37,916 nucleotides of DNA from a virus. Every line of letters starts with the position of its first letter. The stretch's first letter is position 1. The stretch lies in the IMG/VR virus record IMGVR_UViG_3300021960_000208, positions 1 through 37,916 of that record. One strand, given 5' to 3'. The notes beneath the pieces were generated by a model. It saw only the letters and a program-made list of their open reading frames with translations, searched no databases and was not told the DNA's origin. The position numbers were made by a program, and so were the translations under genes. Below are positions 17,591 through 26,278 of the stretch, piece by piece.

Positions 17591-18733
17591 ATGGCCACAA
17601 GAATAACTCCTTTACCCCCACCTCCGGAAGATCCGGCAGGTCGTCCCACCGGTCAGCTTCGCGTCCCCCCCGCTGCCGGGGGTGCTACGCCAGAAGAAAC
17701 GGCGAGGTTTACGCAAGCTGTCCGGGAAGCTGAGCAGCGCAGATATTATGGTGATACAAGCTATGGGTCCCCTCTGAATCAAGCGATAGCTGAGCAGCGG
17801 AAAATAGCGACGGGCGGGTTTACTCCGAGGACCCCCGCAGAACTAGCTGCTTACAATCTTGCAGTGCGGCAGCAGCCGACTTTTGGCTCTCCCGCTCAGG
17901 CATATATGCTTCAGCGCAGCTTGGAGCGTGGCCTTCTCGATCAAGCTCGTCCAGCGCAAGCGACCCCACGAGATTCTGTTGGTGCTGGGCTAGACGCAGG
18001 ACAGCAGTCTGCGCTCGAACAGAACCAAGAAATGTCGCTCAGTGGCCTCTTGGGTAATGTAGACTGGCAGGGCCTTCTCCGGGTCCTCGCTCGCCCTGAG
18101 TTTCTTCAGCCGGGGGTCTCCCCTGCTCAGGCGTTTGTCGGCGCATCGTTTGCTCAGCGTCAGGCTGATGCAGCGTCTCGCGCAGCTGCTCAGGCACAGC
18201 AGCTTGAGTACGACAAGCTCCAAGCTGATCTCGTTAAGGAACAGCTTAAAGCCACTCCCCAGCCGCCAAAACCTTCGGCTGAAATAACGCAGCTTTATAC
18301 CAAAATTGCCTCTGGTCAAGAAAGTCTTAAAGCACTTAACAAAATGCAGGGAATTATGTCTGGGGGCATTACCACTGGTGGTGCTGCTCTTGGAATAGAC
18401 TTTCTTACAAACTTGGCAGCGGCTTTTAATATCAACATCGGGGAGACCGACAAAACTAACCTGAATAGGCAGGTGGATAAAGTTAGAGCGGCTCTGATAG
18501 CCAGTCGTGCTTTTGGACGAGAAGCCAATAAGCAGGAGCAGAAGCTTATTGAGAACCTTCTTCCCAAGGGCGCAACATTTACTAACGTAGACGAACTTCG
18601 AAACGCCTATAGGGATTTCCAAGAGTACATTGAAAACGATCTAAGGGTAACTTCCGGCATTCTGCAAAACGTGTATCAACTGCCTTCATTTAGTCAGGTA
18701 GTTCCACCTGCTTTTAAAAGAGGTAACCGATAA
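17591..18733 (+). CDS. putative internal (ejection) virion protein
   Basis: A 380-residue protein with a Pro-rich N-terminus, Ala/Gln/Arg-rich helices (residues about 180-220) and a C-terminal helical domain (LIASRAFGREANKQEQKLIENLLP) ending in a basic tail. Such composition is common for proteins ejected with DNA by short-tailed phages. No enzyme motif was found. The stop TAA overlaps the ATG of the giant next gene (TAATG), so both are likely made in fixed ratio. Confidence 0.6.
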   Translation: MATRITPLPPPPEDPAGRPTGQLRVPPAAGGATPEETARFTQAVREAEQRRYYGDTSYGSPLNQAIAEQRKIATGGFTPRTPAELAAYNLAVRQQPTFGSPAQAYMLQRSLERGLLDQARPAQATPRDSVGAGLDAGQQSALEQNQEMSLSGLLGNVDWQGLLRVLARPEFLQPGVSPAQAFVGASFAQRQADAASRAAAQAQQLEYDKLQADLVKEQLKATPQPPKPSAEITQLYTKIASGQESLKALNKMQGIMSGGITTGGAALGIDFLTNLAAAFNINIGETDKTNLNRQVDKVRAALIASRAFGREANKQEQKLIENLLPKGATFTNVDELRNAYRDFQEYIENDLRVTSGILQNVYQLPSFSQVVPPAFKRGNR

Positions 18734-24259: not shown

Positions 24260-24682
24260 CTAGCTAAGTTCAATCTGCTTAGCTTTCTTTTCTTCCGGAA
24301 TATCCCGTCTGAGCCGAATGCTTAAAATGCCATCTTCGAGCTTTGCTTCGACAACATTAACGTGCTCGCCCAGAAGAAACATTTTCTTGAACGGGCGAAA
24401 CGCTATGCCAGCGTAGATCACATTGGCAATATTGTCGTCCTTTTTAACACCGTTAGAGACGACAGACAGAACGTCCTCCTTCACCTCAACGGCGATGTCC
24501 TCTTTGCCAAACCCAGCGACAGCCATCTTAATTTCGAAGCTGTCTTCCCCCAGCTTGATCAAACTATGCGGAGGAAAGTTCTGGTTGGCAGACATCACTT
24601 CTGCCACTTTTTGCATATTGTCAAAAAGGCGCTCGAATCCAAGGGCGGAATCGGACAGAGTAGGAAACATCGAAAGAGTCAT
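24260..24682 (-). CDS. small heat shock protein (Hsp20/IbpA-like)
   Basis: A 140-residue chaperone. The frame is open upstream to 24721, but the ATG 24682 has AGGGGAGA four bases before it and opens like IbpA (SALGFERLFDNMQ). The alpha-crystallin domain spans about 37-128 (FEIKMAVAGFGKEDIAVEVKE in pieces, AYA-like AGIAFRPFKKMFLL, and GILSIRLRRDIPEE). A C-terminal I-x-L-type tail (KQIEL) is kept. Hsp20 proteins hold unfolding clients and are known in some marine phages, where capsid folding help has been proposed. It is the last gene of the leftward operon and has its own likely promoter and a folded leader. Confidence 0.9.
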   Translation of the reverse strand: MTLSMFPTLSDSALGFERLFDNMQKVAEVMSANQNFPPHSLIKLGEDSFEIKMAVAGFGKEDIAVEVKEDVLSVVSNGVKKDDNIANVIYAGIAFRPFKKMFLLGEHVNVVEAKLEDGILSIRLRRDIPEEKKAKQIELS

Positions 24683-24730
24683 GGTTCTCCCCTTTGGGCA
24701 AGAAGTTATGAGGTCCGACATGGCACCTCA
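24683..24730 (-). promoter_or_regulatory. hsp20 leader with two hairpins, RNA-thermometer candidate
   Basis: On the minus strand, TGAGGT (24730-24725) pairs with ACCTCA (24714-24709). A second hairpin then buries the ribosome site: CUUGCCC (24702-24696) faces GGGGAG (24692-24687) across an AAA loop, giving three C-G pairs, a G.G opposition, U-A and U.G. Alternatively UUCU (24704-24701) pairs AGAA (24688-24685). A ribosome site held by a UUGC element with a G.G mismatch in front of an hsp20 gene is the layout of ROSE thermometers. Folding is by eye. Confidence 0.45.
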
Positions 24731-24735
24731 AAATA

Positions 24736-24764
24736 AGTTTACCACATAACTACGCTACTGTCTA
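24736..24764 (-). promoter_or_regulatory. possible promoter of hsp20
   Basis: TAGACA (24764-24759) and TAAACT (24741-24736) on the minus strand are 17 bases apart, with TGG directly before the -10 hexamer as in extended -10 promoters. The -35 overlaps the stop codon of the oxygenase gene. Transcription would start near 24729, exactly before the first leader hairpin. Confidence 0.5.
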
Positions 24765-25310
24765 GCGGAAAGGAGGGCCGACTGCCCAACCGGTGAGGCT
24801 ATACCGGGTCCCGCTAGTAACCTCCGTAACTCGGTGGTAGTAGTACGAAGGAAACACAATGAAGCAACCGGGGGTCTCGAAGGCAGTTTCCTTGATAACC
24901 CGCTTGCGATAAGGGGCCGAGGGACTGCCCCAACTAAACTGAAACTCCCCTCCTTCGAAGTCCTGATTCAGAACCAGATTGAACGTCAGCTTGCGCATCG
25001 GATCACCGGGCAGCATATCTATATGCCATCCGTACTTCTGACCGGGACCATACTTCGACAGCTGTAGGTTCTCGATCCCTGAGATGTCGAAATTCCAATC
25101 CTTATTTGCTACCCGCATCATATAGAGAACAACCTCTTTGAACTCAGGGTCATCCACAGCGAAGACAGCGTTGTTCCGGACGCTGCGGTCTTCCCCTCCG
25201 AGGACTTTCCCCTGTTGTTCGTCCAAGCTGTCGCACAACGAGATTATCGCTGTGCAAAACTCAGGGACAAAGTGCTGGCCCTCTGACGACTTCCAGACGT
25301 TACCGTACAT
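24762..25310 (-). CDS. 2OG-Fe(II) oxygenase (prolyl hydroxylase/PKHD-like)
   Basis: A 182-residue enzyme that should use 2-oxoglutarate, O2 and Fe(II) to hydroxylate an unknown target. Iron ligands are H96 and D98 (WHIDM) and H159 (YYHRV); R169 (GTRYSLTGW) binds 2-oxoglutarate. The segments KLTFNLVLN, FEGGEF and IVFPSYYYHRV.EV..G.R are those of the P4H/PKHD family. I set the start at ATG 25310 in a TGATG overlap with nrdB; the open frame runs 24 bases further. Such genes are common in marine phages; targets proposed include proteins and nucleobases. Coupling to nrdB suggests expression in the nucleotide and replication phase. Confidence 0.85.
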   Translation of the reverse strand: MYGNVWKSSEGQHFVPEFCTAIISLCDSLDEQQGKVLGGEDRSVRNNAVFAVDDPEFKEVVLYMMRVANKDWNFDISGIENLQLSKYGPGQKYGWHIDMLPGDPMRKLTFNLVLNQDFEGGEFQFSWGSPSAPYRKRVIKETAFETPGCFIVFPSYYYHRVTEVTSGTRYSLTGWAVGPPFR

Positions 25311-26278
25311 CAAGCGGCCCAGACATCGGACCAATCACCACTAAGAGCCCCTTTAGCGTAGTCTGTGGCACGGTTCTCAAAGAAGTTTGTGTGCGTCGGG
25401 GCGTTAATCATCGTCTCTACCCAAGGCAGAGGGTTCGTCTTTACTCCATAAATACCCTTCATCCCCATTGCAATCAATCTGCGGTCAGCGATATATCGGA
25501 TATACTCCTTCACTTCGTAGTCTCGTAGTCCTTCAATCTTGCCCATCTTGAACGCAAGATCAATGAACTTGTCTTCCAGTTCGACCATCGCCTCGGCTGT
25601 AGAGTAGATTTCTGATTTGGTTTTGTCGTTCCAAATGTTCAGGTTCTCCTCGACGTAAGTGCGGAATAGCTTGATCATTCCCTCAGCGTGCTGGGTCTCA
25701 TCTACGATAGACCAAGTTACAATCTGCCCCATCCCCTTCATCTTACCGTGGCGAGGGAAGTTGAGCAGCATAATGAACGAACTGAACAGCGCCAATCCTT
25801 CTGTGAACGCACTGATCGCTGCGATCTTCAGGGGGATGGAGGCGTCCCCTGATACCTTGTCGATGAAATAATCATGCTTATCGCGCATAACTTCGTACTG
25901 TAGGAACTCGTTATAAGTAGACTCAGGCATCCCCAGAGATTCGATTAGATGGGAGTACGCTGCGACGTGCAGTGCCTCACGTGCAGCAAAGCTGCTCAGC
26001 ATCATGCGTACTTCAGGCTGTGGAAAATGTGGTAGATAGTTGTCTACATAACCACCAGCCACATCAATGTCCGACTGTGTGAAGAAGCGAAAGATGTTAG
26101 TAAGAAAGTACTTCTCTTCTGTAGAGAGGTTAGTCTTCCAATCCTTTACATCCTCTAGCATAGGAACTTCAGTGTGCAGCCAGTGCGATTGTTCGTGCTT
26201 CAACCATGCGTCATATGCCCACGGATAGTGGAAAGGCTTGAAGTAATTCCGTTGATCTTGAAGTTTAAGCTTTGTCAT
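25310..26278 (-). CDS. nrdB: class Ia ribonucleotide reductase, beta subunit
   Basis: A 322-residue radical-generating subunit. The di-iron ligands are visible as E37 (HTEVPM), E101 and H104 (REALHVAAY), E160 (FTEGL), E194 and H197 (VDETQHAEG). The radical tyrosine is Y108, in the expected E-x2-H-x3-Y spacing. The C-terminal part (FFENRATDYAKGALSGDW and following) is the tail that docks on the alpha subunit. It begins directly after the nrdA stop. With nrdA it makes deoxynucleotides for phage DNA synthesis. All key residues are present, so it should be active. Confidence 0.95.
   Translation of the reverse strand: MTKLKLQDQRNYFKPFHYPWAYDAWLKHEQSHWLHTEVPMLEDVKDWKTNLSTEEKYFLTNIFRFFTQSDIDVAGGYVDNYLPHFPQPEVRMMLSSFAAREALHVAAYSHLIESLGMPESTYNEFLQYEVMRDKHDYFIDKVSGDASIPLKIAAISAFTEGLALFSSFIMLLNFPRHGKMKGMGQIVTWSIVDETQHAEGMIKLFRTYVEENLNIWNDKTKSEIYSTAEAMVELEDKFIDLAFKMGKIEGLRDYEVKEYIRYIADRRLIAMGMKGIYGVKTNPLPWVETMINAPTHTNFFENRATDYAKGALSGDWSDVWAA

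Follow-up and report, generated by a model that had tools for sequence, protein, structure and literature searches.

The ROSE class of leader elements has been described in alpha- and gammaproteobacteria, and a single ROSE-like example is known from Anabaena. The ibpA gene of Pseudomonas has a two-hairpin ROSE element that represses in the cold and whose hairpin II opens on heating; hairpin II alone suffices, hairpin I being dispensable for the heat response (PMC3669281). E. coli IbpA also binds its own ROSE 5′ untranslated region (5′UTR) and represses translation, for which it needs an arginine at position 93, where no substitute works, and an aromatic residue at position 34, and for which it also uses K98 (PMC10474464). 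The phage thermometers named in reviews and in a pipeline paper are limited to cIII, blyA and the fourU leader of a sigma70 gene. Keyword searches of open-licence papers returned none that reports a phage ROSE element, and the cyanophage Hsp20 papers of that literature mention neither thermometers nor ROSE. One comparison of 16 T4-like cyanophages found the hsp20 gene itself in all of them (PMC3037559). Here we describe a leader on the hsp20 gene of a marine phage that is real, conserved and ROSE-like, and that occurs in phages far beyond the stretch of DNA in which it was noticed.

Results

The window, that is, the whole 37.9-kb stretch of DNA analysed, is a phage contig from IMG/VR that encodes an SU10-type portal, a ribonucleotide reductase, a family A DNA polymerase and a DnaB-like helicase, the polymerase being nearest to those of the Pelagibacter phages HTVC103P/104P/115P (~40–41% identity). 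Its hsp20 gene (24260–24682, minus strand; start codon ATG 24682–24680) encodes a small heat shock protein of 140 amino acids, and the longer open reading frame (ORF) 24260–24721 is assigned to Hsp20 by its match to PF00011 (E 2.2e-15). The gene upstream (24762–25334, minus strand) encodes a 2OG-Fe(II) oxygenase (PF13640, E 1.6e-15); such a gene also adjoins hsp20 in HTVC008M, there on the downstream side (L229, 1269–1823).

The original prediction of a promoter, a 46-base leader and two hairpins was confirmed in every part and position on the minus strand. The promoter is sigma70-like, TAGACA-17-TGGTAAACT: the −35-like TAGACA (24764–24759, minus strand) is unchanged across the 16 sequences aligned and shares bases with the TAG stop codon of the gene upstream, and the extended −10 (24744–24736, minus strand) follows 17 nt later; in relatives it reads TGNTATAAT or TGNTATACT, always with the same spacing. 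If transcription starts ~7 nt past the −10, the leader is 46 nt long. It is predicted to fold into hairpin I, UGAGGU[G]CC-AUGUC-GG-ACCUCA (24730–24709, minus strand), with a bulged G at 24724, and hairpin II, UUCUUGCCCAAAGGGGAGAA (24704–24685, minus strand), in which UUGCC pairs with the Shine-Dalgarno (SD) sequence and the G at 24699 either stays unpaired or faces another G. The SD, GGGGAG (24692–24687, minus strand), is purine-rich in all relatives and stands 4 nt before the hsp20 ATG. In the minimum free energy (MFE) form of hairpin II (−7.0 kcal/mol), G opposes G in a 1x1 mismatch, UUCUU.CC....GG.GAGAA, as against −3.2 kcal/mol for the single-bulge form. The G.G opposition proposed originally is thus found in the window MFE (−7.0 kcal/mol) but not as the conserved form, which is the bulged G, because most clade members have only three Gs.

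Scanning viral contigs gave 31 relatives, 15 of which (53–100% identical) keep TAGACA, the 17-nt spacer, the extended −10, both hairpins, the SD and the start codon, with the same hairpin II core in 15/15. Since alignment A1 was out of register at hairpin II, covariation within this clade was counted with anchors, an approach that forces the inner pairs to pair, so that the pair types alone are informative. Hairpin I shows compensatory changes from G-C to A-U at pair 3 and from U-A to A-U at pair 6; hairpin II varies only from U.G to C-G, as its 3′ arm is the SD. A motif scan of viral contigs with the clade hairpin II pattern gave 93 matches, mostly chance, and the 15 at hsp20 all belong to the window clade. 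No bacterial source was found in a scan of genome contigs.

Comparison carries the claim, since folding energy alone was unremarkable: the single-sequence folding energy of the window leader did not stand out from that of its dinucleotide shuffles (z −1.0 to +0.3). Thermodynamic folding, one of the checks suggested with the original prediction, thus returned both hairpins but not an energy that set them apart. Predicted SD accessibility stayed at 0.17 throughout 10 to 50 °C in the nearest-neighbour model, a range over which the known thermometers of P. aeruginosa and E. coli likewise open very little, and the computed stability of hairpin II at 37 °C (−7.4 kcal/mol) is near those of its P. aeruginosa (−5.3) and E. 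coli (−4.8) counterparts. Nearest-neighbour melting does not discriminate even for proven bacterial thermometers; as it predicts little opening for these and the phage element alike, the heat response is something that we infer.

Hairpins that take in the SD and leave a G unpaired beside C(C/U) were found on hsp20 in cyanophages (P-SSM4, S-PM2, Syn1, S-CREM1, S-B68, S-TIM5), pelagiphages (HTVC008M, 103P, 115P, Mosig), the methylophage Melnitz, C48C1 and the jumbo phages Phosso and SCTP-2. A ROSE-core rule (at least 3 bp, a bulged G, CY/RG and a 3′ arm on the SD) was passed by 46/47 phage hsp20 leaders, SCTP-2 failing with 2 bp only, and by 76 of 77 further IMG/VR hsp20 leaders, the one failure having a doubtful start. 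The controls gave 0/119 for the annotated genes of S-PM2 and HTVC008M (57 with an SD) and 7/195 for ORFs that have an SD in loci retrieved through their hsp20 homology. These counts are descriptive, because the rule was written after the first leaders had been seen and because the sequences are related and include near-duplicates. Overall, about 97% of the phage hsp20 leaders examined have a ROSE-type hairpin on the SD, and the feature is not confined to this phage. Elsewhere in the window, the leader of a 1027-aa ORF at 18733 (plus strand) also passes the rule (ACCUGCUUUUAAAAGAGGU, SD in the 3′ arm), which is probably chance at a background rate of 3–4%.

Upstream of the SD hairpin, a hairpin I with a bulged G was present in 76 of 78 non-redundant leaders (two being bacterial ibpA controls), or ~97%, as against 11.3 expected in shuffles and 9–18 for other bulged bases. 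In 87/120 leaders, compared with 16 in shuffles, a −10-like or T4-late-like box preceded hairpin I by no more than 22 nt; it was mostly 4–7 nt away, so hairpin I usually stands at the 5′ end of the mRNA, irrespective of promoter type. Nearly all T4-like cyanophage, pelagiphage and methylophage hsp20 leaders (L239, L240, L242, L229, L231, L232, L245–L324) have the two-hairpin, bulged-G arrangement closely after a TATAAAT- or TATAAT-like box. The anti-SD of most other phage hsp20 leaders is YGCU, with ACGCU in several; in a cyanophage subgroup (L264, L266, L272 and similar), AGACGCU pairs with AGGUCU, the SD register is shifted and the pyrimidine before the usual UY context of the bulged G is absent. 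Two unverified records, L227 (Pseudomonas phage Y7, OQ572409) and L234 (Campylobacter phage A11a, MG065691; E. coli-like ibpA and ibpB genes), contain bacterial-type ibpA with ROSE leaders, which is likely host DNA in the records.

In a MAFFT alignment of 21 leaders that was not fitted to structure, 32 two-sided covariation cells were counted against 11.9 in shuffles (score 0.369 against 0.182), and slid registers gave no more than 15 such cells. A model-fitted alignment of 58 leaders, a procedure that favours structure, gave 117 cells against 31.9. The covariance model R2 was built from 58 matches in hsp20 loci of other phages, the window clade being excluded; its best match in the 37.9-kb window was the leader (24734–24677, 18.9 bits, E 0.011; next E 1.4), and under default filters it reported neither this site nor its clade. 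R1, a narrower model of 21 leaders, ranked the window leader second in the window (E 0.58); E-values of these covariance models are rough. A second, weaker R1 match (18.6 bits) lies in L256 at 764–825, ~110 nt upstream of the hsp20 leader.

Among 4227 Rfam families, the top match of the 65-base leader stretch was ROSE_3, over its full length (19.8 bits, E 0.014), below the gathering cut-off of 43 bits; an Rfam scan of 801 bases gave no match. The related phage hsp20 leader L053 scored 33.2 bits against ROSE_3 (E 1.2e-5). When whole records were scanned with RF02523, the window site was missed at the seed step and chance matches scored 8–14 bits, the exception being the L053 record at 33.2. The window leader has the ROSE hallmarks of a 5′UTR of a small heat shock gene, two hairpins with the SD in the second, and an unpaired or G-opposed G in the SD helix. 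Its anti-SD, UUGCC (U(U/C)GCC in the clade), agrees with the ROSE motif U(U/C)GCU at four of five positions. As the window clade departs from this motif and falls below the Rfam cut-off, we do not claim strict ROSE membership. The original proposal of a ROSE-like leader that sequesters the SD of a phage hsp20 is nonetheless well supported by clade conservation, the R2 match and ROSE_3 as top Rfam match.

Discussion

Our results make it fairly probable that this leader is a two-hairpin, ROSE-like translational switch of phage hsp20. The host-type sigma70 promoter would yield an mRNA beginning at hairpin I, and in hairpin II the anti-SD UUGCC would pair with the SD and hold translation down. We infer that hairpin II lowers hsp20 translation, and heat would likely open it and relieve the repression: because a mismatch or bulge at the conserved G would keep the hairpin weak, warming could open it and release the SD. 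Possibly jointly with heat, Hsp20 may bind its own leader and hold it closed until aggregates take up the protein. Against such a switch stand an anti-SD (UUGCC/UCGCC) that is not the textbook U(U/C)GCU, the ROSE_3 score below cut-off, a folding z of about 0 and flat SD accessibility from 10 to 50 °C. That a marine phage meets small temperature changes also counts against a heat switch.

Capsid maturation is a suggested role for the phage small heat shock protein. The best-surviving alternative, which we think somewhat improbable, is autoregulation without a thermometer, the leader being mainly a receptor on whose bulged-G hairpins phage Hsp20 (or host IbpA) would sit, with repression lasting until unfolded or aggregated proteins titrate Hsp20 during capsid production. 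E. coli IbpA is the precedent (PMC10474464). Of the 113 different phage Hsp20s compared, all 113 carry an aromatic residue (Y/F) at IbpA position 34, and Arg occupies position 93 in 112; the window protein, with R and F there, has the residues expected for self-repression, while IbpB, which does not repress, has Gln at position 93. This conservation makes feedback release by aggregates a serious alternative or addition to heat. Hairpin I, dispensable for the heat response in Pseudomonas (PMC3669281), moreover keeps its bulged G in 76/78 leaders. On the other hand, R93 could be kept for another reason, and K98, also needed in IbpA, is M in the window protein, which has K at 97 and so lacks Lys/Arg at 97 and 98 together. 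Most work on IbpA is in gammaproteobacteria, and RNA binding by phage Hsp20 is putative. For a phage, a putative feedback that is lifted when virion proteins aggregate would be more fitting than a response to heat, and it would also provide a role for hairpin I. The original idea that infection warms the cell we judge not plausible, and protein aggregation acting through Hsp20 feedback would be a better-founded second trigger. For the phage hsp20 class as a whole, we put forward tentatively, as rather unlikely, a two-hairpin ROSE-type riboregulator whose main input in infection would be folding load rather than heat, with Hsp20 repressing itself by binding the pair of bulged-G hairpins, virion aggregates releasing it and a thermometer built in.

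The near-constant predicted occlusion from 10 to 50 °C would also suit an ordinary leader, in which a constitutive weak hairpin merely tunes hsp20 translation and responds to no signal, and some other genes of the window have equally hidden SDs. Yet the bulged-G architecture is kept on hsp20 across very different phages and promoters and is nearly absent from control genes, which makes such passive tuning distinctly unlikely. Hardly credible is the start that the original prediction had itself set against its reading, the in-frame ATG in the hairpin I loop (24719–24721, minus strand), which has a GAGG 4 nt before it in hairpin I as SD, would open the longer ORF and would place hairpin II inside the gene: this ATG is shared only with the near-identical L001 and is missing in L002–L015, Hsp20 family proteins align from the start at 24682 or slightly within it, the relatives (54–100% identical) begin at the equivalent of ATG 24682 or at the ATG of Met 5 further downstream, without need of the upstream ATG in any of them, and the stretch varies in the manner of structured RNA. 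We therefore rejected it.

The ROSE-like switch that we favour has consequences beyond this phage. A conserved leader on essentially all phage hsp20 genes implies that the protein must be made on demand only, and it names temperature or protein aggregation as possible signals. If the reading is true, ROSE-type control extends from bacteria to many abundant marine phages. The question is directly testable with small reporters.

Among described systems, lambda cIII, SP-beta blyA (fourU) and the fourU of a Caudoviricetes sigma70 gene (PMC11182007, PMC4166951) are temperature-linked structures in phage mRNA leaders, as ours would be, but none is ROSE-like or on a chaperone gene, and cIII works in the opposite direction. 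The Synechocystis hsp17 thermometer (PMC4477652) is similar in its very short leader on an hsp20-family gene; unlike ours, it is a single hairpin with a 1x3 internal loop and is not ROSE. The E. coli ibpA element (PMC10474464) likewise has an SD hairpin with an unpaired G, and the RNA-binding Arg93 and the aromatic residue 34 of its protein are conserved in phage Hsp20; however, enterobacterial elements are longer, Lys98 is not conserved in phages and phage self-repression is putative. Closest is the Pseudomonas ibpA element (RF02523 ROSE_3, PMC3669281). The window leader differs from it in serving a phage gene, in its sigma70-like rather than sigma32 promoter, in its length (~46 nt against 61–62), in UUGCC for UUGCU and in scoring below the Rfam cut-off of the family. 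Yet both have two hairpins only, an hsp20-family gene, an unpaired AUG, the SD in hairpin II, an unpaired G in the anti-SD and a bulged G before CC/GG in hairpin I, and the window leader aligns with the Pseudomonas element over its full length.
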